DNA of 49,100 bases from Actinomycetota bacterium (GTDB lineage: Bacteria; Actinomycetota; Acidimicrobiia; Acidimicrobiales; Acidimicrobilacustridaceae), in NCBI GenBank assembly GCA_009700115.1, contig WLMU01000005.1, positions 1-49,100 on the forward strand, written 5' to 3'. This document shows positions 1,440-21,556 of this stretch, one piece after another. The notes beneath the pieces are model-generated. The model was not told the DNA's origin and searched no databases. It was given only the letters and a program-made list of their open reading frames with translations. Both the position numbers and the translations under genes were made by a program. Within the stretch, counting starts at the first letter, position 1. Each line of letters starts with the position of its first letter.

Positions 1440-1523
1440 ATGGCCCCCCGTTCTCGGGGGAACGGTAGTCGGTGGGCCTCAGCAGCACCGTCGCAGTCAT
1501 GGCGAGACTGCTAGAAACGACGC
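1440..1523. promoter_or_regulatory. Divergent promoter region, sulfotransferase / SDR
   Basis: An 84-base divergent spacer. On the plus strand TAGAAA (1512-1517) is six bases before the SDR ATG at 1524, as in the leaderless promoters elsewhere in the window. On the minus strand TACCGT (1467-1462) is a possible -10 for the sulfotransferase. A 6-bp inverted repeat, CCGTTC/GAACGG (1448-1453 and 1460-1465), lies between that box and the start codon. Confidence 0.35.
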
Positions 1524-6590: not shown

Positions 6591-6603
6591 ATTCGAGCGC
6601 GAA

Positions 6604-6629
6604 TCGGGTCTGGGTTCCCCCAGACCCGA
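6604..6629. terminator. Convergent hairpin terminator
   Basis: An 11-bp perfect stem (6604-6614 with 6619-6629) with a TTCC loop lies between the converging oxidoreductase and peroxiredoxin genes and could stop transcription in both directions. Confidence 0.75.
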
Positions 6630-6665
6630 GCGCGAATAGTGCTGTCTTGCTTGATGAGAGCAGGC

Positions 6666-7148
6666 TTACAGCCGCCCGATCACCGCTGAGCAGGAGCTCA
6701 CTTCGACGCCGCCGTTTTCATCGACGTCGAGATTGGTGACGACGCCGTTTTCGATAATGACGGCGTAGCGCTTTGAGCGAACGCCGAGGCCAAATCCGGT
6801 TCCGTCCATGACCAAGCCCATGGCCTGTGTGAATTCGCCATTGCCGTCGGCAAGCATCGTGATCGAGTCACCGACTTGCTGGTCCTCGCCCCACGCGCCC
6901 ATGACGAACGCGTCATTGACGGAGATGCAAGCGATTCGATCGACGCCTTTGCCGGTGAGTTCGTTTGCTTGCTGGACGAAGCCAGGAAGATGAACCTTCG
7001 AACATCCCGGAGTGAATGCACCGGGAACCGCGAACAGTACGACTTTGCCTGATCCGAGCACATCGGCGGTGTTGACCTTTTCGGGTCCGGCCGCGCCCAT
7101 GATGAACAGATCGATGGCGGGGATTGTGTCTCCAACGTTGATTGTCAT
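6666..7148 (-). CDS. Peroxiredoxin, Prx5 (redoxin) subfamily
   Basis: A 160-residue thioredoxin-fold peroxidase of the Prx5/AHPE type. The peroxidatic Cys49 sits in VPGAFTPGCSKVHLPG. A C-terminal Cys153 (VEVSSCSAV) is placed like the resolving Cys of atypical two-Cys Prx5 enzymes, so an internal disulfide is plausible. It would reduce H2O2, alkyl hydroperoxides or peroxynitrite in the cytoplasm. ATG at 7148 lies six bases after TAATGT (7160-7155), with no ribosome site, so it is probably leaderless. It is a single gene; a second peroxiredoxin of the BCP class is encoded at 25.4 kb. Confidence 0.92.
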   Translation of the reverse strand: MTINVGDTIPAIDLFIMGAAGPEKVNTADVLGSGKVVLFAVPGAFTPGCSKVHLPGFVQQANELTGKGVDRIACISVNDAFVMGAWGEDQQVGDSITMLADGNGEFTQAMGLVMDGTGFGLGVRSKRYAVIIENGVVTNLDVDENGGVEVSSCSAVIGRL

Positions 7149-7154
7149 GCGGTC

Positions 7155-7160
7155 ACATTA
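7155..7160 (-). promoter_or_regulatory. -10 box TAATGT for the Prx5 gene
   Basis: On the minus strand TAATGT is followed by six bases and then the ATG at 7148. It is one of the better matches to TANNNT in the window and implies a leaderless transcript. Confidence 0.5.
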
Positions 7161-7227
7161 CGGTTTCGACGATGGGCCGTGCCTGTTCGGGTGCGGATTC
7201 GAGGGGACGATTCCTCTACCTCGTCGA

Positions 7228-7725
7228 TCAGCCGAAGAGAGTCGAACTGGCATCGGCGGTGGCAAGCACCGCGAAATAGACAAAGACGATCGTTTGGGCG
7301 AGGCAGAGCAGGCCAAGAAGTTGGGCGGCATCGCCATCCCGTTCGGCCGAGGGGCTCCAAAGCTGCCGAACGACAACCGTCGCGACGGCCACTGCTGCGA
7401 CGGCGGTAACCGTGATCGACCAACCAACAGGGAACTGCATCTTCCAGCCGATCAATGCTGCGGCACTCACTGCGCCAGGGATGAGGGCGAGAAGACGTTC
7501 CTTCGGCGTGGTTCCAAAAACCGCTTGGCGAAGGAACGCAACGAAGCCGGCGCCACCGATGGAGAACACCAGCAACTGCAAAATTGCGTCTGTCGCAGAT
7601 TGTGTCGCGAGTTGATTGAATGCAAGGACGTCGCCGAGCACCAAGAAAGCGAGTGTGAGCGTGACCAGCGCATTTTGAGCAATGGAACCCACCGTGTGGC
7701 GCGGTTGTGTGAGTTCGGAAGTCAT
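7228..7725 (-). CDS. Hypothetical multi-spanning membrane protein coupled to murT-gatD
   Basis: Not a family I recognise. The 165-residue product has about five hydrophobic segments: LVTLTLAFLVLGDVLAF, LQLLVFSIGGAGFVAFL, LLALIPGAVSAAALIGW, a Val/Ala-rich helix, and LLGLLCLAQTIVFVYFA. The ATG at 7725 overlaps the gatD stop codon (ATGA, 7722-7725), so I prefer it to the longer reading frame starting at 7749; translation is presumably coupled to GatD. Being third in a lipid II amidation operon suggests a peptidoglycan-precursor or envelope role at the membrane, which is inference from position only. Confidence 0.75.
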   Translation of the reverse strand: MTSELTQPRHTVGSIAQNALVTLTLAFLVLGDVLAFNQLATQSATDAILQLLVFSIGGAGFVAFLRQAVFGTTPKERLLALIPGAVSAAALIGWKMQFPVGWSITVTAVAAVAVATVVVRQLWSPSAERDGDAAQLLGLLCLAQTIVFVYFAVLATADASSTLFG

Positions 7726-8528
7726 GAGCGTCGCAGAATGTCTCGCCAAGACCGCCGAGGAGCGAGTTCATGATCGCGAGCGGCTTGAATCCGTTCTACG
7801 CGCAATGACTCTACGTCGGTGTCATTAAGCGGAGTGAGAGCTGAAGCCCCGACGATCCAACCCAAAAGCGCGTCGGCGAGTAACGGGTTGCGAGCAAGCA
7901 CGGGACCATGCAGGTAGGTGCCTACGATTTTTCCGGTAATCACGCCCTCAGTTCCGTCGCCGTTACCTTCTCCGACTTCAACCGAAGCAAGAGTTTGAGA
8001 GCAATTGCCGGGAATTGTCCGACCAGCGTGATTTTCGAATCCAGTTAGTGGTCCGAGGTCGATGATCCCATCGGCGGTCGTGAGTTGCGCACTCGTTGTA
8101 AGCAGTTCGCCAACCGCCCGAGTTCGGTCGACACGGACGGTTTCGCAATCAAGAAGTCCAAGTCCCGGACGACTCGTTCCATTCACGTCCGGAAACCGAT
8201 GTCCAAGGATCTGCATCCCCGCGCAAATGGCAAGAACGACAGCGCCGTTCTCCACTGCGCGATGAAGACCTTGGCTCTGTTCGAGTTCTCGAGTGGCCTG
8301 AACCTGCGGGCCATCCTCGCCGCCGCCGACGAGGTACAAGTCTGCTGAATCGGGAACTGGTTCGCCCGCATCCACAGTGATGTGTTCAACAGCGATTCCG
8401 CGCCATTCGAGTCGACGAGATAATACGATTGCGTTGCCTCCGTCGCCGTATGTTCCGAGGAGGTCTGGGTAGAGCGAAACAATCCGGACCGCGGAGTCGG
8501 TCAGGCGAGTGGTGGGGAGTGACGTCAC
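7722..8528 (-). CDS. gatD: Lipid II isoglutaminyl synthase, glutaminase subunit GatD
   Basis: A 268-residue class I (CobQ/CobB-like) glutamine amidotransferase domain that stands alone. The nucleophile is Cys102 in LAICAGMQILGH, and the partner His207 is in GTYLHGPVLARNP. YPDLLGTYGDGGNA at the N-terminus is typical of GatD. It releases ammonia from glutamine for MurT, which amidates the alpha-carboxyl of D-Glu in the lipid II stem peptide. GTG at 8528 overlaps the murT stop (GTGA, 8525-8528), giving the expected 1:1 coupling of the two subunits. Function follows from family and partner gene. Confidence 0.93.
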   Translation of the reverse strand: MTSLPTTRLTDSAVRIVSLYPDLLGTYGDGGNAIVLSRRLEWRGIAVEHITVDAGEPVPDSADLYLVGGGEDGPQVQATRELEQSQGLHRAVENGAVVLAICAGMQILGHRFPDVNGTSRPGLGLLDCETVRVDRTRAVGELLTTSAQLTTADGIIDLGPLTGFENHAGRTIPGNCSQTLASVEVGEGNGDGTEGVITGKIVGTYLHGPVLARNPLLADALLGWIVGASALTPLNDTDVESLRVERIQAARDHELAPRRSWRDILRRS

Positions 8529-9817
8529 AGCACACCGCCCACATACTCGAGGTGGTCCTGAAAAGCGGTGTAGTTCGATGCAATATCGATGGGAAGAGTC
8601 GGATCGTAGGTAGGTGACTGACGAACCAATTCGATGGCTGATTCGAGATCATCGGCGACAACGTGATTGATGTTGCCGTAACGGAATCGAACCGCAAGGT
8701 CGTGTCGTCGTTCACCGATCGCGACGACAAATCGTTGACCGATGCGTTCGTAAGCGACGTCCCACAGCCACGATGGGTCATGACCATCGGCGATTCGGGC
8801 ATTGATGGCAACCACGAGAGGTGTTGATGGCCCTTCAAGGAGTTCGAGGGCCTCGTGCCAACCAGCGGGATTTTTGGCCAACAGGAGCCGGATGCGACTG
8901 TCGCCAAGTTGGGCGATCCGATATCGACCCGCAACTTCGCGAACGTCGTCGAGACCATCGAATGCTTGGTCGAGGTCAGCCCCCATCGCTGACGCAGCAG
9001 CGAGTGCGAACGCAGCATTGACCCGATTGACGCGACCAGGAAGCGCGAGTTCTCCGGCGATGGTTTTGCCCTCGATGGCGATGACGCCGTCGTTGATTGC
9101 CACATCGACGGAAGGTCGTCGAAGGTCGCAGTCCGAGCAGGCCCAACCCTCGTCGGCGAAGTCAATGCGACCCGAACACGCAGGACACCCAGCGGCATCG
9201 GCAGTCCAATCTTGACCAGTGCCAACCCACACAACATTTGGAGCTGCGAGTGCGGCCCATGCCACGAGCGGATCATCGGCATTAGCGATGACGGTCTGGG
9301 GTGGAGTTGCCTCAAGCGCTACCCGCCACTGCTCTGCGAGCTTGCGAACTTCTTGTGTTCGATCAAGTTGATCGCGACTGAGATTGAGCAGGACGACTGT
9401 GTTTGCGCTGGTGGCACGCAGAACTGAATCGACCCAACGTTCGTCTACTTCAAGAACTGCCGTATCAGTTGCGTTGGCGGCGGCAAGTGCCGCAACAATT
9501 CCGGGTGTCATATTCGCGCCTAACCAATTGGACACAACTGGTCGATCGGAGCTGAGTGCGCTTGAGAGAAGTTTTGTCGTTGTGGTCTTTCCGTTCGTCG
9601 CGCTCACAATGACGACATCCCGAGATGCAGTGAGTTCCGACAGCAGATTTTTGTCAATAAGCAACGACACTCGACCGCCGATTACCGAACCTGTCCCGAA
9701 ATGCACAACACGAGAGACCCGGGCTACGAAACGACCGGCAGCGACGGCGAGCCGTGTGCGAGGTCGCAGCTTTATGGCTCGGCCTGTTGCAGAAGCGGGG
9801 GTGGGAGCATCAGTCAC
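8525..9817 (-). CDS. murT: Lipid II isoglutaminyl synthase, Mur-ligase subunit MurT
   Basis: A 430-residue Mur-ligase-type ATPase. The P-loop SATNGKTTTTK spans residues 72-82. A four-Cys zinc ribbon (Cys211, Cys214, Cys227, Cys230) inserted in the central domain is diagnostic of MurT versus MurC-F. The C-terminus (about 300-430) is the DUF1727 domain. It activates the D-Glu carboxylate of lipid II by phosphorylation and uses ammonia from GatD. GTG at 9817 lies nine bases after TAGCAT (9832-9827), with no clear ribosome site. The operon continues into gatD and a small membrane protein. Confidence 0.93.
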   Translation of the reverse strand: MTDAPTPASATGRAIKLRPRTRLAVAAGRFVARVSRVVHFGTGSVIGGRVSLLIDKNLLSELTASRDVVIVSATNGKTTTTKLLSSALSSDRPVVSNWLGANMTPGIVAALAAANATDTAVLEVDERWVDSVLRATSANTVVLLNLSRDQLDRTQEVRKLAEQWRVALEATPPQTVIANADDPLVAWAALAAPNVVWVGTGQDWTADAAGCPACSGRIDFADEGWACSDCDLRRPSVDVAINDGVIAIEGKTIAGELALPGRVNRVNAAFALAAASAMGADLDQAFDGLDDVREVAGRYRIAQLGDSRIRLLLAKNPAGWHEALELLEGPSTPLVVAINARIADGHDPSWLWDVAYERIGQRFVVAIGERRHDLAVRFRYGNINHVVADDLESAIELVRQSPTYDPTLPIDIASNYTAFQDHLEYVGGVL

Positions 9818-10768: not shown

Positions 10769-11686
10769 TCAGGCTGCGTCTGCTTCGATGACACCTTCGA
10801 TAGCCCATGTAAGAGTGCGGATCAGCGCCCGGGCTGCGGGTTGAACGATCAGCGGATCAAGGGCCGGAACCAACGGCAGTTTGAGGTCTTCGCGCATCCA
10901 CGTGGGGAGCATGCCCACAGCGGCAGGCGCAATCACGCCATACGCGGTGCGGGCCGCAAGCGGAAGGGGAGCGAGCATGAGCCAACGAGCAGCGTCGCGG
11001 GCCTGCTGGCCGGCCTCGAGTTCCGGACGAATCTTTTGCATCCACTGGTCGAGTTCGGCGACAGAATGCGCTGACTCATTGCCCCCGAGACGGTCGTTGA
11101 TGATTGCCATTTCATCGACGTAGCGATCGGCTTCAGCGGAAGTCAGAGTTGTTGCTCCGTAGCGTTGATAGGCGCGAAGGAATGAATCGACCTCTGCATG
11201 ATGGACCCATGAAAGAAGGTGAGGGTCATTGGCCGAGTACTCGCGACCATCAGGTGCGAGGCCGACGACTCGTTGATGCACTCGAGTCACCATTTCGAAT
11301 GCCGCGGTGGCTTGTTCGGTTGTGCCGAACGTCGTGGCAGCAACGAATTGGCTCGTTGCGCTGAGGCGGTCGAGGGGATGGCGTCGGTAATCGGAATGTT
11401 CGGCAACACCGGCCATAGCGAGAGGGTGCATCAACTGCACGAGAAGGGCGCGTAATCCGCCGATGAGCATCGAACCGTCGGAATGGACTCGCCATGTGAC
11501 GCTGTCGGGTCCGAAAAGACCAGGGTCGCCGTCGAAGGGTTTGGTGAGATCTCGCACCGGAGGGTTGTCTCCGGAGATCAGGGTGCGGAGTTCTCGACCC
11601 AGCCGCAATCGGACATTGCCAAGTGCCGAGCCGATCGCTTCAGCAATGGCGGTTAGCCCCGGAGGCAGATTTGGCTCGGTGGTCAT
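10769..11686 (-). CDS. MpaB-like oxygenase family protein (DUF2236)
   Basis: A 305-residue helical protein of the DUF2236/MpaB family, which includes latex-clearing protein (a heme b oxygenase) and many uncharacterised actinobacterial members. Visible family blocks are WRVHSDGSMLIGGLRALLVQ, LMHPLAMAGVAEHSDYRRHP, and LLSWVHHAEVDSFLRAYQRYG near the middle, with candidate heme-ligand histidines. The reading frame stays open to 12115, but that extension crosses the cobalamin riboswitch and encodes unrelated basic sequence. ATG at 11686, six bases after TATCCT (11698-11693), is the credible leaderless start. The substrate is unknown. Confidence 0.85.
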   Translation of the reverse strand: MTTEPNLPPGLTAIAEAIGSALGNVRLRLGRELRTLISGDNPPVRDLTKPFDGDPGLFGPDSVTWRVHSDGSMLIGGLRALLVQLMHPLAMAGVAEHSDYRRHPLDRLSATSQFVAATTFGTTEQATAAFEMVTRVHQRVVGLAPDGREYSANDPHLLSWVHHAEVDSFLRAYQRYGATTLTSAEADRYVDEMAIINDRLGGNESAHSVAELDQWMQKIRPELEAGQQARDAARWLMLAPLPLAARTAYGVIAPAAVGMLPTWMREDLKLPLVPALDPLIVQPAARALIRTLTWAIEGVIEADAA

Positions 11687-11692
11687 GAGTTG

Positions 11693-11698
11693 AGGATA
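11693..11698 (-). promoter_or_regulatory. -10 box TATCCT for the MpaB-like gene
   Basis: TATCCT on the minus strand, six bases before ATG 11686, decides the start within a much longer open frame. It is divergent from the riboswitch-controlled operon. Confidence 0.5.
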
Positions 11699-11749
11699 GG
11701 ACTCGACGGCGCGAAACCGCCGGTCGGACGAGTATCGCTTTCGGTGATT

Positions 11750-11905
11750 GACGGGGGCCACCCCATGTGGTGGGGTGTAAAGACAACTTGACCCACCGCA
11801 GCAGGGGAAGCCGGTCTGATTCCGGCGCTGACCCGCAACCGTAGGTGGCCTCTGGGGAGATTCTCCGGGCGGCCACGAGCCGGACTGCCTGCTTCGAGGG
11901 GATTG
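11750..11905 (+). promoter_or_regulatory. Cobalamin (B12) riboswitch aptamer
   Basis: The plus strand carries the conserved blocks of the cobalamin riboswitch in order: GCAGGGGAAGCCGGT, GATTCCGGCGCTGACCCGCAA, a variable GC-rich stem (about 11845-11875), and the B12 box GAGCCGGACTGCCTGC (11877-11892). It lies in the 380-base gap 11687-12066, which holds no gene, and reads into the ECF transporter operon. Binding of adenosyl- or methylcobalamin is expected to reduce expression of the importer. Outer boundaries are approximate because the P1 stem was judged by eye. Confidence 0.93.
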
Positions 11906-11974
11906 CTCCATCACAGACCGTCGTCGGATTACGGGAGGTGGGGCTCGGTTCGGTCGGCGGCCTTGGTCCGTGGT

Positions 11975-12002
11975 CCGGTCGGGTCTCGCACCCATAGACC
12001 GG
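11975..12002 (+). promoter_or_regulatory. Hairpin in the riboswitch expression platform
   Basis: CCGGTC pairs with GACCGG (11975-11980 and 11997-12002), extended by GGGT/ACCC inside with a small bulge. It sits between the aptamer and the first gene. There is no U-run, so it may act in translation control or as a U-less terminator. Confidence 0.4.
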
Positions 12003-12066
12003 CACACGTAGGCGCCTGTGGCAGACCTGAAATCAGACCAGAAAAAGAACCGAGACACCGCATACC

Positions 12067-12921
12067 GTGAGCACCCGTCGTTCCTCCTCCGCAATGTTGC
12101 GTGCGCAAATGTCACGCGCGTGTCGAGCGATGGCGGTTTGTTGTGTGGGTGTCATCGCGCTTGCGGGATTGATTGTTACGACGAGTGGCCGCGCCGAGGC
12201 TTCGTCTTGCTCCGGACCCCTTTCCGGTGGGGAAATTCGTGTGGTGGTCGTTGTCGATTCGTCTGATCTCGGTGGAGGCGCTTCGGCGACCTGCCTCGTC
12301 GTCCCTGCCGGGACTACGGGTTCGCAGTTATTGGCCCGACGCAGTGCGGAACTCGGAACTGGCTCTGTTCGTTATGGGTCAAGCGGTTTGTTATGTGCAA
12401 TTGATGGACTGCCGGCCGCAGGATGCGGCGATCACAATGCCGGTGGCTTTGACTATTGGGGATATTTCATCGGCCGATCTGGAAGTTGGGTCTTCGGCAA
12501 CATCAATCCATTTACACGACGACTTTCCGATGGCGACATCGAGGGCTGGCGTTACGTGCGTGGGGGAACCGGTAGCGCGCAAGACCCGGCGCCGCGGATC
12601 GTTCCGTCGCAATCACTCTTTCCATCTCTTCGTCCAGGCGAGCCCGCTTTTGTTGAGCAACCAGCGGCAGCAAGTGGAACCGTACCGTCGCTGAGTTCTT
12701 CTATGACGATCGATGTTTCTCCTGAACAAACTTTCGATTCACTCGATGTCGCTTCGATTGCGACGACAACGCTTGAACCGATTGCTGTCGAGGGTGTTGC
12801 GCTGGCGTCATCACGAACGAGCGACTCAAATCTTGGTCGATGGTTCGCTATTGCGGCGGTGTTTGTTCTTATCGCCATGATGACGGGCGGCGCTTGGATA
12901 CAGACTCGTAGGTCTCAATGA
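12067..12921 (+). CDS. Exported transcobalamin-like (DUF4430-type) protein of the B12 importer, C-terminally anchored
   Basis: A 284-residue surface protein. The N-terminus is basic with a hydrophobic signal segment (about 22-42) ending near GRAEASSC. Residues 45-160 resemble the DUF4430/transcobalamin C-terminal-like fold (GFDYWGYFIGRSGSWVFG; DGDIEGWRYVRGG; GSAQDPAPR). A Ser/Pro-rich linker leads to a transmembrane segment (about 258-278) and a short basic tail (TRRSQ). The fold is related to the beta domain that binds cobalamin from one face in human transcobalamin, so this is likely the extracellular B12-capture component. It is first gene after the riboswitch; EcfT overlaps it by ATGA. 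GTG 12067 has a poor ribosome site and ATG 12094 is an alternative. Confidence 0.8.
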   Translation: MSTRRSSSAMLRAQMSRACRAMAVCCVGVIALAGLIVTTSGRAEASSCSGPLSGGEIRVVVVVDSSDLGGGASATCLVVPAGTTGSQLLARRSAELGTGSVRYGSSGLLCAIDGLPAAGCGDHNAGGFDYWGYFIGRSGSWVFGNINPFTRRLSDGDIEGWRYVRGGTGSAQDPAPRIVPSQSLFPSLRPGEPAFVEQPAAASGTVPSLSSSMTIDVSPEQTFDSLDVASIATTTLEPIAVEGVALASSRTSDSNLGRWFAIAAVFVLIAMMTGGAWIQTRRSQ

Positions 12922-14018
12922 CTGCGCCGCGAATGTTGCACCCGGGGGCATGGTGGTTGTGGGCGGTGGCACTCGCTGCATGTGCATTACGCACGACGAA
13001 CCCCGTATTGCTCAGTCTCATCATCGCGGTCGCCGGATGGGTCGTGGTCTCCCGTCGAACCGATGTGCCGTGGTCTCGGTCGTTCGCAAGTTTCCTGCGA
13101 CTCGGACTCATCGTTGTGGTGTTCCGTGTTGTGTTTCAGATCCTTTTCGGCGTTCGTGTCCCTGGGACAACACTCTTTTCCATTCCCGAGGTCACCCTTC
13201 CTTCGTGGGCGGCTGGTGTGAGTCTGGGTGGACCGGTCACGCTCGAATCGTTAATGGCGGCGCTCTACCAAGGACTTCGGCTCGCAACAGTGCTGGCTTG
13301 TTTCGGTGCGGCCACTTCGTTGTGCAGTCCTTATCGCATGCTGCGAGCCCTGCCCACGGTGCTCTACGAAGCAGGCGTGGCGGTGACGGTCGCCTTCACG
13401 TTTGCGCCACAGGCGATTGTTGCATCGCGTCAGGTTCGTGAAGCGCGTCGACTCCGTGGTCGTTCAGATCGTGGACTTCGAGCCTGGTCAGCGTCAGCCT
13501 TGCCTGTACTTGAAGGAGCTCTTGATCGCGCTGTCGCTCTCGCTGCATCGATGGACAGTCGGGGCTACGGCCGACGGGGTGGAGCGTCGGTCTCTCAGCG
13601 TCGGCGTTCCGTTGGTTTGGTTTTGCTCGGCCTCGTCGCTCTAACGATCGGCTCCTACGGACTCCTCGATCCGGCGGCACCTGCAGCGTTCCGGCTCCCG
13701 GCGCTCGCGGTCGGGGTGATAGCCCTCGTGGGCTCGCTCGTTGCTGGCGGTCGTTCCGCCGAGCGGACTCGCTACCGACCCGATCCATGGGTGAAACCGG
13801 AATGGATTGTTTCGGTTGCTGGCATCGTTGCCTTTGCATCGTTCGTCTTCGCAGACAGGATGGGCGACGCGCTCAATCCGTCAACGAATCCACTTGAGGT
13901 TCCAGCAGTTCCTGTCGTCGCGGTGCTCGGGCTTCTTATCGCAACGCTTCCGGCGTGGTTCGCTCCTCCGCCCCCGACTCTCGCAGCAGTGTCAACTTCT
14001 ATGGCGGTCGCGGCATGA
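12918..14018 (+). CDS. ECF transporter transmembrane coupling protein EcfT (B12 importer)
   Basis: A 366-residue membrane protein with several hydrophobic helices in the first 165 residues and again near 235-350. Both cytoplasmic coupling-helix motifs of EcfT are visible: ARRLRG (176-181) and DSRGYG (213-218), which engage the two ATPase subunits. It joins the ATP-hydrolysing module to the substrate-binding S component. ATG at 12918 overlaps the upstream stop (ATGA) and its own stop overlaps the ATPase start the same way. Family and operon context are clear; the B12 substrate is inferred from the riboswitch and the neighbouring proteins. Confidence 0.9.
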   Translation: MTAPRMLHPGAWWLWAVALAACALRTTNPVLLSLIIAVAGWVVVSRRTDVPWSRSFASFLRLGLIVVVFRVVFQILFGVRVPGTTLFSIPEVTLPSWAAGVSLGGPVTLESLMAALYQGLRLATVLACFGAATSLCSPYRMLRALPTVLYEAGVAVTVAFTFAPQAIVASRQVREARRLRGRSDRGLRAWSASALPVLEGALDRAVALAASMDSRGYGRRGGASVSQRRRSVGLVLLGLVALTIGSYGLLDPAAPAAFRLPALAVGVIALVGSLVAGGRSAERTRYRPDPWVKPEWIVSVAGIVAFASFVFADRMGDALNPSTNPLEVPAVPVVAVLGLLIATLPAWFAPPPPTLAAVSTSMAVAA

Positions 14019-15649
14019 TCAGGTTTGAACATGTGACGATCACCTATCCCGATGCCACCGCTCCGACACTGGTGGATGTCTCGTTTGAGGTTCCCGAAGG
14101 GGAGTTGTGTCTGGTAGTTGGCGTCACGGGCTCAGGGAAATCCACCTTGCTGCGCGCGGTGAACGGATTAGTTCCACGTTTTTCTGGTGGCGTGCTGGCT
14201 GGTTCAGTCGTAATCAACGGCAAGAGCACGGCCGACCTCCCGCCGCGAGATCTCGCCGATGTCGTTGGTGTCGTTGGTCAAGATCCGGCGGCTGGATTCG
14301 TCACCGATTACGTCGAAGACGAACTGGCCTATGCAATGGAGAACCTCGGCGTTGCGCCTGAGGTCATGCGCCGTCGCGTTGAAGACATTCTCGATCTCCT
14401 TGGTCTGCACGAAATCCGACATCGGCCGCTCGCCTCGCTCTCTGGTGGGCAGCAGCAACGAGTGGCGATTGGTTCCGTGCTTACTGCCGGTCCACGAGTT
14501 CTTGTTCTCGACGAACCAACGTCCGCCCTCGACCCAGCTGCAGCTGAAGAGGTGCTCGCCGCGCTCACTCGCTTGGTCCACGACCTCGGGATCACGGTGC
14601 TCATCGCTGAGCATCGACTCGAACGAGTCGTTCAGTACGCCGATCGAATCGTGATGGTTCCTGGCGATGGCCGCCCCGTAGTCGTGGGAACACCCGCCGA
14701 AGTTTTTGGTCAATCTTCAGTTGCGCCGCCGGTGGTCGAACTCGGCCGGTTAGCTGGTTGGTCGCCGCTTCCTCTTTCGGTGCGAGATGCCCGCCGTCTC
14801 GCGGGACCTTTGCGTGAGCGACTCGCCGAAGTTGAACTGTCTGCTTTTCGACGGACTTCGCGCGTGGTCGGAGATGTTGTTGCGATCACTGACGGTCTTC
14901 AGGCGTCATACGGGCCCATCACTGCACTGCGCGGCATCGAACTGCAGTTCCGAGCCGGTGAAGTCGTTGCACTGATGGGTCGCAACGGCGCAGGAAAGTC
15001 GACATTGCTAAATCATCTCGTCGGACTGCGCGAACCCGCCTCGGGAACTGTGCGGGTAATGGGCGCCGAGCCGCATCGACTTTCGGCTCATGACGTCGTT
15101 CGTGTCGCCGGATTGGTTCCGCAAGACAGCGGCGTCTTGCTCTATCACGACACGGTTGCTGCCGAATGCAGCGCCTCTGATCGCGATGCCGGCCTTGACT
15201 CCGGAACAACACGTTCGGTACTTGATCAAATCGTTCCTGATGTCAATCCGACTGCGCATCCCCGTGATCTTTCGGAGGGACAACGCCTAGGGCTGGCGCT
15301 CTCTATCGTGTTGGCATCAGAGCCCCCGTTGTTATTGCTCGACGAACCGACACGAGGACTTGATTACGGGGCCAAGCAACGACTGGTTGAGTTGCTCAGT
15401 CGATTGGCGGATGAAGGCCATGCCGTGGTTATCGCGACGCACGACGTTGAAGTAGTCGCCGCCGTTGCCGATCGCTGCGTCGTGCTTGCCGAAGGAGAGG
15501 TCGTCTCCGATGGTCCTGCTCGCGATGTTGTCATTCACTCACCCGTTTTTGCACCGCAAGTAGCGAAAGTTCTGGCACCGTTACCGCTGCTTACAGTTCA
15601 TGAAGTCGAGCTCGCTCTTGCGGCGGTTGGCGATCTTCCCTTCTCATGA
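14015..15649 (+). CDS. Fused EcfA-EcfA' ATPase of the B12 ECF importer
   Basis: A 544-residue protein with two complete ABC ATPase halves. Half one: Walker A GVTGSGKST (36-44), signature LSGGQ (142-146), Walker B VLVLDEPTSAL, H-loop IAEHR. Half two: Walker A GRNGAGKST (322-330), signature LSEGQ (419-423), Walker B LLLLDEPTRGL, H-loop ATHD. The second signature departs from LSGGQ, the mild asymmetry common in ECF ATPases. In many organisms the two subunits are separate; here they are one chain. ATG at 14015 overlaps the EcfT stop (ATGA); the open frame extends to 13955 but that is inside ecfT. Confidence 0.93.
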   Translation: MIRFEHVTITYPDATAPTLVDVSFEVPEGELCLVVGVTGSGKSTLLRAVNGLVPRFSGGVLAGSVVINGKSTADLPPRDLADVVGVVGQDPAAGFVTDYVEDELAYAMENLGVAPEVMRRRVEDILDLLGLHEIRHRPLASLSGGQQQRVAIGSVLTAGPRVLVLDEPTSALDPAAAEEVLAALTRLVHDLGITVLIAEHRLERVVQYADRIVMVPGDGRPVVVGTPAEVFGQSSVAPPVVELGRLAGWSPLPLSVRDARRLAGPLRERLAEVELSAFRRTSRVVGDVVAITDGLQASYGPITALRGIELQFRAGEVVALMGRNGAGKSTLLNHLVGLREPASGTVRVMGAEPHRLSAHDVVRVAGLVPQDSGVLLYHDTVAAECSASDRDAGLDSGTTRSVLDQIVPDVNPTAHPRDLSEGQRLGLALSIVLASEPPLLLLDEPTRGLDYGAKQRLVELLSRLADEGHAVVIATHDVEVVAAVADRCVVLAEGEVVSDGPARDVVIHSPVFAPQVAKVLAPLPLLTVHEVELALAAVGDLPFS

Positions 15650-16485
15650 AACGATCCGGACACCATCGGATTGACGTGATTCGTTTAGGTGCGACATCGT
15701 GGGCCCTGCTCATTGCTGCGTTTGCCTTGGGAGTCGTCGCATTTGCTTGGCCCCTCTTCGCATCCGCGAACTCTGCGCTTGATGCTTCGCATAGTGCCGA
15801 TGCCCCCTGGATTTTTGTGATTCTTATTCCGCTTTTGATTGGTGTAATCCTTGCCGAGTTGGCCGATGGTTCCCTTGACGCGAAATCGGTGGCACTACTT
15901 GGTGTGCTGGCAGCGAGCGGGGCGGTGTTGCGACTCCCAAGTGGTGGGGTGGCAGGGTTTGAGCCGGTGTTCTTCCTCCTGGTTCCGGCAGGGCGAGTAT
16001 TCGGTCGGGGTTTTGGGTTTGTTCTTGGAGCGCTGACACTTTTCGTAAGTGCACTCATCACAGGCGGCGTTGGTCCGTGGCTTCCGTTTCAGATGTTCGG
16101 TGCGGCGTGGATCGGATTCTTTGCCGGTTGTTTGCCCCCAGCGCGTGGGCGACTTGAGGTTGCCCTCCTTGCGATCTACGGAGCCCTCTCGGCTCTTGCC
16201 TACGGGTTGGTGATGAACCTTTGGTTCTGGCCGTTTGTGAGTTCAGGTGACACGACGGTGTCCTATGTCGCTGGTGATTCGGTGGCCGAGAACCTCCGTC
16301 GTTTTTGGGGCTTCCACATCACCACTTCATTCGGGTTTGATATTCCTCGGGCAGTGTTTACTGCGCTGTTTCTTGTCATCGCTGGTCGGCCGCTACTTGG
16401 CGCGCTGAGAAGGGTGGCCCGCCGAGCGGCGTTCGAAGCCCCAGTGACGTTTGTCCCGGCGGAAACGGGAAGCACCATCTACTGA
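15646..16485 (+). CDS. ECF transporter S component, CbrT-like (cobalamin)
   Basis: A 279-residue integral membrane protein with about six hydrophobic segments, the expected topology of an S component. Family-like blocks are SGGVAGFEPVFFLLVPAGRV, GFVLGALTLFVSALITGGVG and GPWLPFQMFGAAWIGFFAG. The late conserved stretch VAENLRRFWGFHITTSFGFD is typical of actinobacterial CbrT-type predicted cobalamin S components. It would bind B12 in the membrane and release it inward when driven by EcfT/EcfA. ATG at 15646 overlaps the ATPase stop (ATGA), completing the riboswitch operon. Substrate assignment rests on family resemblance plus the riboswitch. Confidence 0.85.
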   Translation: MKRSGHHRIDVIRLGATSWALLIAAFALGVVAFAWPLFASANSALDASHSADAPWIFVILIPLLIGVILAELADGSLDAKSVALLGVLAASGAVLRLPSGGVAGFEPVFFLLVPAGRVFGRGFGFVLGALTLFVSALITGGVGPWLPFQMFGAAWIGFFAGCLPPARGRLEVALLAIYGALSALAYGLVMNLWFWPFVSSGDTTVSYVAGDSVAENLRRFWGFHITTSFGFDIPRAVFTALFLVIAGRPLLGALRRVARRAAFEAPVTFVPAETGSTIY

Positions 16486-16507: not shown

Positions 16508-17473
16508 ATGGCTTCTCACGTCTTCGTTACGCGTCCTCTGCCCGCGCCAGGAATCGATCTCCTGAAAGATTCTGGATTTGAGGTTCGATCAAATCCAGAA
16601 GATCGTCCGCTCAGTCGAGAGGAGTTGTTGGCGGGGGTTCGAGATGCCGATGCACTGATCTGCATGCTGAGCGATCGCATCGATAGCGAACTGCTTGATT
16701 CGGCACCTGCACTGAAAGTCATCGCCAACTACGCGGTTGGGCATGACAATATCGACGTCGGAGCTGTTCGAAAACGCGGTATCGAGGTCACGAATACTCC
16801 CGGTGTACTGACCGAAGCCACTGCCGATCTTGCGTGGGCGCTGCTTCTTGCCGCTGCACGGAACCTTGGGGCCGGCGAGCGAATGGTTCGTGCGGGGGAG
16901 TGGACCGGTTGGGGTCCGATGCAGTTGCTTGGCGAACCGCTGCAGGGGCGAACGCTGGGCATTGTTGGAATGGGTGCAATCGGTCAAGCAGTCGCGAGGC
17001 GGGGTAAGGGTTTCGGATTGGAGATCATCTACTTCAATCGCAATCGTGTTGCTCCTGAAATCGAGTCTTCACTGGGTGCTCAATTTGTTTCTTTTGATGA
17101 GTTGGTGCGTCGCTCAGACTTTGTGTCACTGCATGCACCACTGAATGAGCAAAGTCGACACCTGTTCAATCAGCAGACATTTCAGTCGATGAAGTCCACG
17201 GCCGTACTTGTAAACACGGGTCGTGGTGCATTAATCGATGAAGTCGAGTTAGTTGCAGCGCTTCAACAGGGCCGCATCGCCGCGGCCGGTCTCGATGTCT
17301 ACGAATTCGAACCGAAAATTACTGAGGGTTTGGTAAGTCTCGACAATGTTGTACTAGCGCCACATCTTGGATCTGCATCGACATCAGCGCGCGGGGACAT
17401 GGTTCGATTGTGTTGTGAGAATGTGATCGCCGTACTCGCTGGCAAACCAGCGCTAACGCCGGTGCATGCCTGA
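16508..17473 (+). CDS. D-2-hydroxyacid dehydrogenase (glyoxylate/hydroxypyruvate reductase type)
   Basis: A 321-residue NAD(P)-dependent D-isomer hydroxyacid dehydrogenase. The Rossmann motif is GIVGMGAIGQAVARR. Catalytic Arg lies in NTGRGALIDE, catalytic Glu in the LDVYEFEPKI region, and catalytic His in VLAPHLGSAS. The pattern with VGHDNIDV and TPGVLTEATADLAW fits GyaR/GhrB glyoxylate and hydroxypyruvate reductases. ATG at 16508 was chosen; GTG at 16493 in the same frame is possible. It lies 22 bases after the cobalamin S component and could be read through from that operon, though no functional link is evident. Confidence 0.9.
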   Translation: MASHVFVTRPLPAPGIDLLKDSGFEVRSNPEDRPLSREELLAGVRDADALICMLSDRIDSELLDSAPALKVIANYAVGHDNIDVGAVRKRGIEVTNTPGVLTEATADLAWALLLAAARNLGAGERMVRAGEWTGWGPMQLLGEPLQGRTLGIVGMGAIGQAVARRGKGFGLEIIYFNRNRVAPEIESSLGAQFVSFDELVRRSDFVSLHAPLNEQSRHLFNQQTFQSMKSTAVLVNTGRGALIDEVELVAALQQGRIAAAGLDVYEFEPKITEGLVSLDNVVLAPHLGSASTSARGDMVRLCCENVIAVLAGKPALTPVHA

Positions 17474-17477
17474 CCAC

Positions 17478-18341
17478 TTACGCAGTTTTTGCGCGAGCCG
17501 AGATTGCTAATTCCGCAATTTGGTCAAAAGCAAGAAGCATCTCTGTGGCCGATGCCGTTGTTGCCTCGGGATGAGCAGCACGTGCTTTTGAGCCGATGCC
17601 GTGGCCACCGATTACGACGGGGCACCCGAGTTTTTCTTTGATGGCGTTCACAGTGGCAATGATCTGATCGTCGGTTTCGGCAGTGCTTGAAGTGATTCCT
17701 ACTGCGATCAATCGGTCGGCACTGCCTGCAGCGTCGAGGAACGATTCAATCGGCGAATTGGCGCCAAGATCGAAGACGGTGAATCCACTTCCGCGGAGTA
17801 GGTCGGAAGCAATTGCTGTTGGAACAGCATGCAGATCGCCTGATACGGCCCCAAGGACGATTGTCCCGCGAGTTTGTCCAGGGCGATGAAACCGTGGCCC
17901 AAGACGACCGATCAGGCGATTCGTGACTGCAGTAGCGCGATGCTCATCGGCGATCGATACTTCGCCGGCCGCCCAAGCGCTTCCGATGGAGGCAAGAGCC
18001 GGAGCAAGAACTTCTAAATAGACAGCGGAAGGTTCGAGTCCTGACACCATCGATGCCTCGATCACGTTCCATGCGCCGGCTTCGTCCCCAGCTAAGAGCC
18101 GGTCACAGAGCCGTACATGCCAATCGACATTCTTGTGAGATTTCGTTTTCGTTGGGGTCGATGCAAATTCATCGAGTGCGACCTTGTTAACGAGCCAGCC
18201 ACCGCCAGCTTTCACTGCGGGAAGACGACCGGTGCGCACATAGCGATACACCGTCATGTAGTGCACGCCGAGTTGATCGGCTGCTTCGGTGAGGGTCAAT
18301 GTAGGAGTGACCGATTGCGTGGACTGCGATTCATCAGTCAT
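17478..18341 (-). CDS. CarH/LitR-type cobalamin-binding transcriptional regulator, probable light sensor
   Basis: A 287-residue regulator with an N-terminal MerR/excisionase-type helix-turn-helix (about 15-60: LTEAADQLGVHYMTVYRYVR). A helical cobalamin-capping domain (about 70-145) and a C-terminal B12-binding Rossmann domain (about 155-285) follow. The capping domain holds Trp123-x9-Glu133-His134, the W-x9-EH signature of adenosylcobalamin photoreceptors such as CarH. In the Rossmann domain Asp169-x-His171 gives the expected lower-axial His. CarH represses in the dark as a tetramer and releases DNA when light breaks the Co-C bond. ATG at 18341 follows GGGGCGGGGAA; the frame upstream crosses the bioD end and is not coding. 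Targets are unknown; autoregulation is likely. Confidence 0.88.
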   Translation of the reverse strand: MTDESQSTQSVTPTLTLTEAADQLGVHYMTVYRYVRTGRLPAVKAGGGWLVNKVALDEFASTPTKTKSHKNVDWHVRLCDRLLAGDEAGAWNVIEASMVSGLEPSAVYLEVLAPALASIGSAWAAGEVSIADEHRATAVTNRLIGRLGPRFHRPGQTRGTIVLGAVSGDLHAVPTAIASDLLRGSGFTVFDLGANSPIESFLDAAGSADRLIAVGITSSTAETDDQIIATVNAIKEKLGCPVVIGGHGIGSKARAAHPEATTASATEMLLAFDQIAELAISARAKTA

Positions 18342-18405
18342 TTCCCCGCCCCTCACCGGTAGTCCTTGCGATGCTCTGAAGCAGACGGTAGCGGCGACCA
18401 GGACT

Positions 18406-18420
18406 TCAGGCCTGATCAGG
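18406..18420. promoter_or_regulatory. Candidate operator of the CarH-like regulator: three alternating half-sites
   Basis: TCAGG-CCTGA-TCAGG forms two overlapping perfect 10-bp palindromes with no spacer. It lies between the bioD stop and the regulator start, about 16-30 bases upstream of a possible minus-strand -10 TACCGT (18390-18385), so it would overlap the -35 region. Autoregulatory binding is inferred from position. Confidence 0.4.
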
Positions 18421-18429
18421 GGGAAATTC

Positions 18430-19092
18430 TTAGTTTGCTTTGATTTTTGCCAGCACTGCCGGGACGCTTGAAAGAACGTCAACGTCAAGATGTTGGACAA
18501 GCCAGTCGCGATTGCGACGATGTAAGTCATCGGCAGGATCGAATCGATTTAAAACAACAACAGGGGTCGCGACGTGGGCGCCACTGTTGATTGCTTCGAG
18601 GCTCAGGAGAATTGAGTTGATTGTGCCGAGCCCTGCGTCAGCGACGAGAAGCACAATGTCGGGCTGTAGAAGTTCGATAAGTGAAATGGCGTCTCCATTG
18701 CTGGCCATTGGTGAACGGATACCACCCGCAGTTTCAACAAACGCAACATCGGGGGCCGGCAGTGGCCACTGGATTTCGGCTGCGAGATCTTCGACGGAGA
18801 ACTCGGGACGGGCAAGCGCATCGGCGGCCATTGGCGGCGCCATCGCAATCGGATACCAACGATGTCGCGGGCAGACGTCGGTCGGATGTTCGCCCGATGC
18901 GTCAGCAAGGTGATGCGCATCTGTCAGTGAATCGTCGGGATCGAACGATTGCACTGGCTTGCGTGCGGCGACATCGACACCGTTAGCTCGCAGATCACGG
19001 AGAAGGCGAGCCGTGACCCATGTCTTTCCAACTTCAGTCCCAGTTCCAACAACAACGACAAGGCGTTGTGGTCGTAATCCGTCGAAGGTCAT
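18430..19092 (-). CDS. bioD: Dethiobiotin synthetase BioD
   Basis: A 220-residue P-loop enzyme. The nucleotide loop VVGTGTEVGKTW spans about residues 14-25, and KPVQSFDP plus ETAGGIRSPM are the substrate-side motifs of BioD. It closes the ureido ring of dethiobiotin from diaminopelargonate, CO2 and ATP. ATG at 19092 overlaps the bioF stop (ATGA, 19089-19092). The gene is the last of the ABC1 kinase-bioA-bioF-bioD run; the final-step enzyme BioB is not in the window. Confidence 0.93.
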   Translation of the reverse strand: MTFDGLRPQRLVVVVGTGTEVGKTWVTARLLRDLRANGVDVAARKPVQSFDPDDSLTDAHHLADASGEHPTDVCPRHRWYPIAMAPPMAADALARPEFSVEDLAAEIQWPLPAPDVAFVETAGGIRSPMASNGDAISLIELLQPDIVLLVADAGLGTINSILLSLEAINSGAHVATPVVVLNRFDPADDLHRRNRDWLVQHLDVDVLSSVPAVLAKIKAN

Positions 19093-20237
19093 CGGCCACC
19101 ATCCGTTTCCAATGTACTTAGAGCGTCAAGTAGTGCAGTGATCTGCTCATCAGTATGGGCCGCCGAGAGCGCCACGCGCAGACGGCTTGACCCGACCGGC
19201 ACGGTGGGGGGGCGAATGGCAGGTACGAGAAGGCCGCATTCGAGAAGCTCTTGTGATGCGCGAAGAGCGGCACTCTCATCGCCAAGGACAATGGGGATGA
19301 TGGGCGATGGGTGGCCGAGTCGGACGCGGTCAACAGATGAGCGCAATCGTTCTCGTAGCGCAGCGCCTTCGGTGGATTCGAGAACGCCTATTGCCGCGAG
19401 TGCCGCTGCCGAGTCGGCGGGACTTGGAGCAGTGGTGAAGATGTAGGTCCGAGCGCGATTTACGAGTAGATCGATAACTGCGGCTGGTCCCGCAACGAAA
19501 CCTCCGAGTGCGCCCAGTGTTTTCGAAAGGGTGCCGACTTGGACGATGGTGGTGCCACCCAGCTGTGGTGGCGGAGTGGGTTCGAGGACAGCGTGAGCCT
19601 CATCGAGAACAAGTAATGCCGAATAGCGAGCACAAAGTTCTGCGAGTTGAGCGATCGGTGCAACATCTCCATCCATAGAGAACACCGAGTCGGTGACGAC
19701 GACCTGGCGCGCGTCGGAATGCGATTCCAAGTGCACGGCGAGTGTTTCGAGGTCGAGGTGGGGATAGGTGACAATCTCGGCACCATTAGCGCGAGCCATT
19801 CGGCAGCCGTCGATGATCGAAGCATGGTTGAGTTCATCGGAATGCACGACAACGCCACGGGCTCCGAGGGTTGCGAGAAGTCCGAGGTTTGCTGCGAATC
19901 CGGTGGGGAAGAGAACCGCCGATTCGGTACCGCGCCAGCTGGCGAGGTGTGTTTCAAGTTCGTGATGAATTGGTCGTGATCCAACGACGAGCCGAGACGC
20001 TCCCGAGCCGGATCCCCAACGATCGATTGCATCACGAGCCGCAGCCTTTACGGCGGAATGAGAGGTGAGGCCGAGGTAATCATTTGAGGCGAACGAAACA
20101 ACGGTTTGACCATTGAGGATTCCGGTGGGACCGTTCGCGTCAAATGCGCGGGGAGATCTCCATCGGTCGCTGCTCTTGATCGAATCAATCTCCGCATCAA
20201 GCCAGGTCGACCAATCGGTCGCTTGGTTTGGGCTCAC
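19089..20237 (-). CDS. bioF: 8-amino-7-oxononanoate synthase BioF
   Basis: A PLP-dependent alpha-oxoamine synthase of 382 residues from the chosen start. Family blocks are FASNDYLGL, SGSGASRLVVGSRPIHHELE, SDELNHASIIDGCR, LDEAHAV, and the PLP lysine in TLSKTLGALGGFVAG. It condenses pimeloyl-ACP/CoA with alanine. GTG at 20237 forms a GTGA overlap with the bioA stop, matching the coupling style throughout the window; GTG at 20246 in the same frame would give 385 residues. It is followed by bioD with ATGA coupling. Confidence 0.93.
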   Translation of the reverse strand: MSPNQATDWSTWLDAEIDSIKSSDRWRSPRAFDANGPTGILNGQTVVSFASNDYLGLTSHSAVKAAARDAIDRWGSGSGASRLVVGSRPIHHELETHLASWRGTESAVLFPTGFAANLGLLATLGARGVVVHSDELNHASIIDGCRMARANGAEIVTYPHLDLETLAVHLESHSDARQVVVTDSVFSMDGDVAPIAQLAELCARYSALLVLDEAHAVLEPTPPPQLGGTTIVQVGTLSKTLGALGGFVAGPAAVIDLLVNRARTYIFTTAPSPADSAAALAAIGVLESTEGAALRERLRSSVDRVRLGHPSPIIPIVLGDESAALRASQELLECGLLVPAIRPPTVPVGSSRLRVALSAAHTDEQITALLDALSTLETDGGR

Positions 20238-21556
20238 TTCGAGCACACCTCGGCGATGGAAGCGGCCAAGACATCGACAATGCGGTCGATCTCATCGGCA
20301 GTAGAAGTGAGGATGGGCATAATCACGACGACGTCACCGAGTGGTCGAAGCAGGACACCGCGTTCGACCGACGCAGCACAAACACGTCGGCCCCATCGGA
20401 GGTCGTCGGCGGGTGGGTTGAGTTCAACACCCACCATGAGGCCGCGTTGGCGCACAACTTTGATGGCAGGGTTGTCGATCGCTAGCCCTGAAAGTCGTTC
20501 ATGTAATTGAGCGGCTCGGTCGCGAACATTGGCCAGAACTTCGAGTTCCTCGAAGAGTTGAAGGTGACGGAGCGCAACGGCAGCAGCGAGTGCATTGCCA
20601 GAAAAAGAGTGCCCGTGATACAGCGTCATCTCGCTGAGGTCGGGGCCGAGGAAAGCCTCGTAGACGCGTCGAGAAGCGACGGTCGCAGCCATAGCGAGGT
20701 ACCCGCCCGTGAGGCCTTTCCCGATGCACATGATGTCGGGACGGAGTCGGCATTGTTCAGTCGCGAACAACGTGCCAGTTCTTCCGAATCCAGTGGCGAC
20801 TTCATCGGCAATAAGTAAGACGTTGTGTTCTCTGCACGCATCGCCAACGCGTTCGATGGATTCGGGGTTGGTAACCCACATTCCCGCAGCGCCTTGAACG
20901 AGTGGTTCGATGACAACGGCGGCGAGTTCGTGTGCATGGGCGGCGATCATCGCAACGGCGGTGTCGGCCCAGCCAAGGTCGTCGTAACCGGGAGCTCGCA
21001 GAACGTCGAAGCGCAGCGGATCGAACACGTCGGTTCCGAATCCACCGGCCCCGATTGAGATCGCGCCGATGGTGTCACCGTGGTACGCCCCACCGAGAGC
21101 GAGATACCGAGTTCGGGACGTGATGCCCTGATTCGTCCAGTACTGAAACGCGATTTTGATTGCTTGCTCAACGGCGGCTGCGCCATCGGACGCAAAGAGA
21201 AAATGTGGTTCGCTGACCGGCACACGAGGAGCGAGAGCTTCTGCGAGTTCGATCGTGATTCGGTTGCCGTTGCCCAACATCGTGGTGTGAGCAACACGGT
21301 CGAGTTGTTCACGAGCTGCCGCATCGAGTTCTGGAACCCGGTGACCGAGTGTTGTCACCCACAACGATGAAATCGCATCGAGGTAGCGGGTTCCATCAAC
21401 GTCGACGAGTTCGCGTCCTTCGGCGTAGTCCACGATGACGGGCCGATTTGTGGCATAGGTCGACATCTGAGTGAAGCCGTGCCAAACAACGGCAGCGTCT
21501 CGGTCGACCCAGCGATCATGGGCACTGGTCAGGGACGTCTGGTCGTCAGGTGTCAC
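20234..21556 (-). CDS. bioA: Adenosylmethionine-8-amino-7-oxononanoate aminotransferase BioA
   Basis: A class III PLP aminotransferase of 440 residues. Motifs: WHGFTQM near the start, DAISSLWVTTLGHR, FASDGAAAVEQAIKIAFQYW, LIADEVATGFGRTG (PLP-ring Asp), and the Schiff-base lysine in CIGKGLTGGYLAM. It converts the BioF product to 7,8-diaminopelargonate using SAM as amino donor. GTG at 21556 overlaps the ABC1 kinase stop (GTGA, 21553-21556); the frame is open to 21658 but the extra sequence lies within the kinase gene and is not aminotransferase-like. Confidence 0.94.
   Translation of the reverse strand: MTPDDQTSLTSAHDRWVDRDAAVVWHGFTQMSTYATNRPVIVDYAEGRELVDVDGTRYLDAISSLWVTTLGHRVPELDAAAREQLDRVAHTTMLGNGNRITIELAEALAPRVPVSEPHFLFASDGAAAVEQAIKIAFQYWTNQGITSRTRYLALGGAYHGDTIGAISIGAGGFGTDVFDPLRFDVLRAPGYDDLGWADTAVAMIAAHAHELAAVVIEPLVQGAAGMWVTNPESIERVGDACREHNVLLIADEVATGFGRTGTLFATEQCRLRPDIMCIGKGLTGGYLAMAATVASRRVYEAFLGPDLSEMTLYHGHSFSGNALAAAVALRHLQLFEELEVLANVRDRAAQLHERLSGLAIDNPAIKVVRQRGLMVGVELNPPADDLRWGRRVCAASVERGVLLRPLGDVVVIMPILTSTADEIDRIVDVLAASIAEVCSK

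Follow-up and report, generated by a model that had tools for sequence, protein, structure and literature searches.

A cobalamin riboswitch-associated ECF importer operon from an acidimicrobial genome and its candidate two-part surface corrinoid catcher

We analyzed a 49,100-nucleotide stretch of DNA (hereafter, the window) from an Actinomycetota bacterium of the order Acidimicrobiales (assembly GCA_009700115.1, contig WLMU01000005.1, positions 1 to 49,100), in which a cobalamin riboswitch is followed by a four-gene operon encoding an apparently exported beta-domain protein and the parts of an energy-coupling factor (ECF) importer: EcfT, a fused EcfA-EcfA ATPase, and an S component. On balance, we consider it likely that the operon encodes a dedicated ECF importer controlled by a cobalamin riboswitch and that its CbrT-related S component is served by an exported, two-part catcher of corrinoids at the cell surface. 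The beta-domain protein would be one part of this catcher, and an alpha/alpha-barrel protein encoded on another contig of the same genome would be the other. The general idea is already predicted in a 2007 paper (Burroughs et al., PMC1796856). What we add is the actinobacterial form and its permutation, the cobalamin-riboswitch matches, the relation of the S component to CbrT, and an unlinked barrel gene behind a riboswitch match of its own.

The importer operon and its S component

The features of the operon, and the barrel gene of the same genome (G000), are as follows:

11748-11910, forward strand: cobalamin riboswitch aptamer (RF00174, by cmscan), present in close relatives too
12067-12921, forward strand: predicted exported beta-domain protein with a C-terminal membrane anchor, SCO2322-family-divergent and DUF4430-related (GTG start)
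12199-12570, forward strand: beta domain inside the 12067-12921 product, halves ordered as in DUF4430 (domain model, hhalign)
12826-12906, forward strand: C-terminal hydrophobic segment of the beta-domain protein, predicted membrane anchor (hydropathy, residues 254-280)
12918-14018, forward strand: EcfT (CbiQ-like), transmembrane coupling subunit (PF02361; ATGA overlap)
14015-15649, forward strand: EcfA-EcfA, two ECF-type ATPase domains in a single chain (ATP-binding cassette (ABC) domains, motif sets)
15646-16485, forward strand: S component, distant CbrT relative (by a profile-profile chain; predicted model like S components)
Contig C110 of G000, ~645-1823, reverse strand: alpha/alpha-barrel gene (22-sequence barrel alignment)

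An earlier note on this DNA, made from the letters alone, had described a cobalamin riboswitch ahead of four genes joined by ATGA overlaps, and the operon is as described: all four open reading frames are present, and ATGA occurs at all three junctions between them. A covariance-model search (cmscan) scored the riboswitch at 35.8 bits against a gathering score of 31.5 (E 1.5e-5), and this was the sole Rfam match at gathering score within the window. The note's naming of EcfT and of a fused EcfA-EcfA held as well. EcfT matched the CbiQ family (PF02361) at 29.4 bits against a cut-off of 25, and the ATPase chain contains two Walker A, two LSxGQ, and two DEP motifs, making up two complete ABC domains. 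The top two NCBIfam models for this chain are ECF ATPases, slightly under their equivalog cut-offs (308.7 versus 330 and 300.2 versus 315). No promoter- or terminator-like sites were found in 11600-12150.

Eight close relatives (loci L003-L010) have the identical gene order up to their contig limits and also keep the flanking neighbors on both sides; the contig of L006 ends within the S gene and that of L010 after EcfT. Identity to the window proteins is 56-81% for the beta-domain protein, 83-92% for EcfT, and 86-95% for the S component where present. The riboswitch reaches the gathering score at the equivalent place in seven of the eight, with L007 slightly under at 31.2 bits, while a more distant relative from Streptantibioticus (L011) showed no riboswitch at gathering score. 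Two of the close relatives, L005 and L006, come from records titled as metagenome-assembled genomes of Bifidobacterium breve and carry the operon and its neighbors at ~80-98% protein identity to the window; these records are probably mislabeled Acidimicrobiia-type genomes.

The S component could be related to CbrT through intermediate sequences. The window protein had no Pfam match; its relative in L011, 51% identical to it, matches PF12822 (ECF_trnsprt) above the cut-off (E 6e-9). The predicted model of the window protein (pLDDT 69.6, pTM 0.70) resembles FolT, RibU, and ThiT (Foldseek probability ~1, with E values no better than 0.03). A 34-row S alignment, which includes six S components of the DUF4430-type operons described below, was compared with the PDB and found 6FNP chain A at E 2e-16, followed by a folate S component at 0.61. 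The entry 6FNP is ECF-CbrT (PMC5997447), and its 182-residue chain A is presumably CbrT. By hhalign, a 28-row alignment of window-type S components matched the six S components of DUF4430-type operons at E 3.7e-28, and those six matched CbrT at E 3.9e-18. Compared directly with CbrT, the window-type profile gave E 5.2e-4 (score 31.2, 156 co-linear columns); the best control scores were 18.9 in 80 column shuffles and 25.8 in 60 block shuffles. The direct match was dropped as a claim: it disappeared once the six rows from DUF4430-type operons had been removed, and we therefore claim the CbrT relation via intermediates only. On these profile comparisons, the S component is a distant relative of CbrT via intermediate relatives, and the earlier description of it as CbrT-like stands in this form, although profiles built from its nearer kin alone do not find CbrT.

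The beta domain, its permutation, and DUF4430

The product of the first gene resembles a protein with a signal peptide and a membrane anchor at its C terminus. Hydropathy places hydrophobic stretches at residues 15-43 and 254-280, and the chain runs from the N-terminal hydrophobic segment through a domain of ~124 residues and a low-complexity linker to the C-terminal one. The anchor that the earlier note had proposed is thus visible, although its term "tail-anchored" is loose for a protein that appears to bear a signal peptide.

The NCBIfam model of the SCO2322 family (NF040672) matched this product at 57.2 bits (E 2.3e-15), under the cut-off of 85, and the match falls in two pieces in reversed order, which we attribute to circular permutation. 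The half containing VVVVVD...LLCAIDGLP..GC precedes the half containing YWGYF...DGDIEGWRY in the window protein; streptomycete-type SCO2322 proteins have the same two halves in the opposite order. Judged from their sequences, streptomycete-type SCO2322 proteins are circular permutants of the window-type beta domain, and the window product is a divergent relative of the family. Both halves matched in reverse order in L011, L041-L044, L109, and L112, and one half alone was above threshold in L108, L110, and L111. All nine genomes above the NF040672 cut-off match the permuted profile almost end to end. Apart from L011 (Streptantibioticus), the label "streptomycete-type" is applied to the permuted group presumptively. 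The window product can be aligned with 30 actinobacterial relatives; the domain-model match at 12199-12570 (7.5e-37) comes from a model whose seed contains the window sequence itself.

A relation of the first gene to DUF4430 is supported by profile-profile comparison and by genomic position. When the window-type beta domain was compared by hhalign with 19 actinobacterial DUF4430 domains, the match was co-linear with a score of 32.3 (E 2.4e-5, probability 75.6). Control scores reached 16.6 in the best of 150 column shuffles, 25.5 in the best of 60 block shuffles, 6.6 with a reversed profile, and 11.9 and 13.6 with two unrelated profiles. Two further profile comparisons concur (E 2.2e-5 and 7.1e-5, probabilities 51.7 and 62.9), and in a fused protein at locus L074, the DUF4430 model (3.1e-5) and the window-type model (2.6e-24) fall on one stretch. 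The Pfam model itself (PF14478) gave no match on the window protein at E 10 and none in the source genome. Turning to position, a DUF4430 search matched 34 of 198 genomes, and loci were examined in 15 of these 34, mostly high-scoring. Riboswitches were found at 10 of the 15 loci, ECF-type ATPases at 13, EcfT at 7, S components at 12, and barrels at 8; DUF4430 proper occupies the equivalent position in similar operons.

The earlier note had called the first protein transcobalamin/DUF4430-like. Its DUF4430 part is supported by the evidence just given. A DUF4430 domain is located at the C terminus of TCN proteins (PMC4350170), and the step from DUF4430 to transcobalamin rests on the literature because a PDB search with nine aligned DUF4430 sequences did not retrieve transcobalamin. 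Moreover, what was presented there as the capture protein is probably half of a device; a barrel gene lies on another contig, and in most relatives it shares the beta locus.

The barrel partner, the phylum-wide survey, and the need for B12

The beta gene of L011 is preceded by one for an alpha/alpha-barrel protein that has a hydrophobic segment at its C terminus. No barrel gene adjoins the operon in the window lineage. An early idea that this lineage is without a barrel proved wrong: a single query from L011 had missed it, and a 22-sequence barrel alignment found a barrel in the window's own genome on contig C110 (E 1.3e-52). This protein matched the SCO2321 family (NF053823) at 91.5 bits (E 5.2e-26), under the cut-off of 300, and by sequence it appears to be a relative of that family outside the family cut-off.

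The RF00174 model gave two matches in G000, that of the window and one directly upstream of the barrel gene, among the 54 of 104 first-look candidates that were scored. The latter site scores 29.9 bits with RF00174, under the gathering score of 31.5, and 46.2 bits with RF01482 against a gathering score of 50 (E 3e-7 in 701 bases); it ends 71 nucleotides before the likely start codon, as we chose that start. The same arrangement recurs, with an unlinked barrel behind a cobalamin-riboswitch match in five of the five genomes having one (G000, G102, G134, G284, and G166, from two families and four genera). Two of the five matches reach a gathering score (RF01482 at 52.6 bits in G284 and RF00174 at 32.5 bits in G134), and the other three lie within 1.6 bits of that of RF00174. 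Four of the five unlinked barrels (L103, L105, L106, and L107) end in a short TG-final tail (FTG, YTG, FTG, and VTG, respectively), which is not present in L104. Tandem glycine riboswitches occur a few kilobases from the unlinked barrel gene in L103 (2993-3240), L104 (6160-6410), L105 (4971-5162), and L106 (10770-10977), and the open reading frame after them in L103 resembles glycine dehydrogenase by eye.

We then surveyed 296 genomes of the phylum with NF040672. Matches were found in 44 genomes, all of which were examined, giving 45 loci (two in G171). Because NF040672 models the permuted form, 44 of 296 is probably a lower bound. A barrel gene shares the beta locus at 37 of the 45 loci, and EcfT, EcfA-EcfA, and the S component occur together at 39. 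Among the exceptions to the full ECF set, L054, L063, L064, and L114 are cut short by contig ends, L070 is without an EcfT match, and L073 is without all three. At 39 of 45 loci, the cassette's first exported gene has a riboswitch match upstream (in L064, this gene encodes a DUF4430 protein); 20 of these 39 matches are above the gathering score, and the remainder have E values up to 0.0031. None was found at L042, L047, L070, L072, L108, and L112, where the barrel is at a contig edge in L047 and L072. In L049, L067, and L074, barrel and beta domain form a single chain, followed by cell-wall-binding repeats; these loci belong to one genus, so that the fusion may be a single event. The window's beta domain and the barrel of its genome are homologous to pairs that are linked or fused elsewhere, and the beta and ECF genes keep to one locus in genomes whose barrel is unlinked or was not found. 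For G058, the barrel search returned weak matches only, in a 756-residue frame. At L070 (genome G225, ~2114-2797 and 5240-8699), the beta gene, accompanied by EcfA-EcfA and the S component, lies a few kilobases from a MetH match.

The source organism is a probable B12 auxotroph, judging from its gene content. MetH was matched in G000, and CbiC and CobS were not (the genome is 85% complete). The same three results were obtained with G102, which is of the same genus and 98% complete. Across the 34 genomes tested, MetH was found in 27, CbiC in 6, and CobS in 10.

Several neighbors of the operon were recorded. Convergent to it, on the reverse strand at 17478-18530, lies a gene for a helix-turn-helix protein with two B12-binding domains (PF12728, PF02607, PF02310), which we take to be a CarH-like B12-sensing regulator. 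A regulator of this type is found at the equivalent place in six of six among the eight relatives, namely those whose contigs extend there. A D-2-hydroxyacid dehydrogenase-like gene (16508-17473, forward strand) starts 22 nucleotides past the S gene and may be co-transcribed with the importer operon; it holds the same position in six of the eight relatives, the contigs of the other two ending before it. Beside the B12 region is a biotin-type cluster (18430-21658, reverse strand) that appears BioD-, BioF-, and BioA-like by eye, its first gene alone having been scanned.

Proposed mechanism, alternatives, and known systems

Cobalamin riboswitches are known as a class to mediate repression by B12. 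From the present analysis, we infer a scheme in which low cellular B12 would let the riboswitch at 11748-11910 permit expression of the operon, with both loci being switched on. The anchored beta domain (12067-12921) and the exported barrel would then meet and bind a corrinoid jointly, in the manner of the two domains of intrinsic factor or of transcobalamin, where the barrel precedes the beta domain. The corrinoid would be held near the CbrT-related S component, which would take it over in a hand-over step and, with EcfT and EcfA-EcfA, move it inward. More broadly, many Actinomycetota may have a two-chain, intrinsic-factor-like receptor (a barrel and an anchored beta protein, each behind a riboswitch and sometimes unlinked) that docks corrinoid onto a CbrT-type S component, which would amount to a binding-protein-dependent ECF importer with a beta domain permuted in streptomycete-type lineages. 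This wider proposal is tentative, and we put it at somewhat less than even.

A number of results weigh against a two-part catcher that serves the importer. The 12067-12921 product matched no Pfam family, hmmscan with DUF4430 matched none of 31 aligned window-type domains at E 0.1, and the beta-domain structure predicted from nine aligned sequences was too poor to be informative (pLDDT 51.7, pTM 0.36), Foldseek finding no match to it at E 0.001. For the S component, 6FNP is absent from the 50 Foldseek matches listed for the predicted model, and profiles of 28, 15, or 8 rows that lack the six sequences from DUF4430-type operons found no CbrT in the PDB. The barrels found no transcobalamin or intrinsic-factor chain in the PDB, and PF01122 (Cobalamin_bind) was above its cut-off in none of 32 genomes. 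Two genomes with beta and ECF genes, G062 and G225, yielded no barrel, and G225 additionally has no EcfT match at L070 and no RF00174 match in the genome. Finally, G134, one of the genomes with an unlinked barrel, has both CbiC and CobS; the cassette is thus not confined to auxotrophs.

The principal point against a need for such a catcher comes from CbrT, which by itself binds cobalamin with a dissociation constant of ~9 nM (PMC5997447), so that the S component may need no helper. In that case, the S component would bind and import B12 by itself, and the beta and barrel proteins would be accessory, stripping corrinoids from other binders or keeping a surface store without direct hand-over contact. 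The fused barrel-beta chains agree with this, as their cell-wall-binding repeats may place them away from the membrane, and so do the unlinked barrels, in which hydropathy shows no clear anchor at the C terminus (values peak at 1.51 in G000 and at 0.34-0.64 in the remaining four). We nevertheless judge it rather unlikely: the beta gene overlaps EcfT through ATGA, its product looks membrane-anchored, and beta and ECF genes are kept together even with the barrel unlinked or not found. The nature of the cargo raises another doubt, as EcfT is a member of the CbiQ (cobalt) family and cobalamin riboswitches are able to control cobalt genes too. The window S component is only distantly related to CbrT, which itself takes cobinamide as well (PMC5997447). 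That the cargo is cobalt or another corrinoid or precursor (cobinamide or an incomplete cobamide) rather than cobalamin is, however, improbable, given that the S component groups with CbrT relatives and that Pfam and NCBIfam scans recognized no CbiM in the operon. In addition, G000 and G102 matched MetH without matching CbiC or CobS, so that they would have little use for cobalt or cobinamide by those routes.

The barrel could also be a terpene-cyclase-type enzyme, or an unrelated surface protein merely co-regulated by B12, that does no joint work with the beta domain. Its best PDB matches are squalene-hopene cyclases (E 2.2e-33), with complement C3d a weak match (0.0013), and PF01122 support is weak, consisting of single matches (16.1 versus 25 bits in L067; 1 of 22 barrels at E 9.8e-4). 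Against this stand the sharing of the beta locus at 37 of 45 loci, the fusion in three genomes of one genus, the riboswitch match before the barrel in five of five unlinked cases, and the barrel at 8 of 15 DUF4430 loci, and we hold an enzymatic or unrelated barrel to be distinctly improbable. A surface catcher composed of barrel and beta domain remains our preferred reading.

Parts of this system have been foreseen or have relatives. Burroughs et al. predicted that transcobalamin-like domains of bacteria, many of them fused to alpha/alpha toroids and sharing predicted operons with CbiO and CbiQ, act as B12 scavengers; the hosts usually lack B12 synthesis, and the clade named comprises low-GC Gram-positives, planctomycetes, and euryarchaea. 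They also described transcobalamin as an alpha/alpha toroid plus a beta domain, with a major role for the toroid cavity in B12 binding (PMC1796856). The window shares with those systems a secreted domain like the transcobalamin C terminus in a CbiO/CbiQ operon. It differs in that Pfam does not detect the actinobacterial beta domain, which has a permuted sister form, and in that the toroid is encoded separately; in the window lineage, the toroid gene is unlinked and follows a riboswitch match of its own. The word riboswitch does not occur in the excerpts of that paper used here. ECF importers have been described with the S component as the substrate-binding protein (PMC5997447), and the earlier note had set the operon against a view that they need no other. 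This contrast is less surprising than claimed because surface B12 scavengers with CbiO/CbiQ operons were already predicted in 2007 (PMC1796856).

ECF-CbrT of Lactobacillus delbrueckii likewise combines an ECF module with a B12 S component, to which the window protein is related via S components of DUF4430-type operons. In contrast, the L. delbrueckii module is common to several S components (PMC5997447), whereas the window encodes EcfT, the fused EcfA-EcfA, and the S component in a single operon together with an exported beta protein, and in direct comparison its S component resembles CbrT weakly (E 5.2e-4). Animal intrinsic factor, transcobalamin, and haptocorrin share the alpha/alpha barrel plus beta domain (an architecture covered in part by PMC1796856). 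They are single secreted chains, whereas here there are two genes and a beta protein that appears membrane-anchored, with no significant sequence match to solved transcobalamin or PF01122. The SCO2321 (NF053823) and SCO2322 (NF040672) families have adjoining exported barrel and beta genes in similar ECF operons (L011, L041-L043); the window differs in its lower scores (beta 57.2 versus 85 bits, own-genome barrel 91.5 versus 300) and in the opposite order of the beta halves. BtuH of Bacteroides (PMC8941943) and BtuF (PMC5997447) are also B12-binding proteins outside the cytoplasmic membrane that act in uptake, but they are of other protein families, and BtuF serves another importer type. Among the open-licence PMC papers searched, we found neither the unlinked two-riboswitch layout nor the beta permutation, and no paper on SCO2322; one paper, about a skin-delivery peptide, names SCO2321.

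If the proposed catcher is real, corrinoid capture would be a separate step in many Actinomycetota, carried out by a recurrent, riboswitch-associated surface pair built like the halves of an animal B12 carrier. The 2007 prediction (PMC1796856) would become testable with small soluble domains, and the SCO2321, SCO2322, and DUF4430 families would gain a working hypothesis. The finding would also bear on the competition for corrinoids among B12-requiring actinobacteria.

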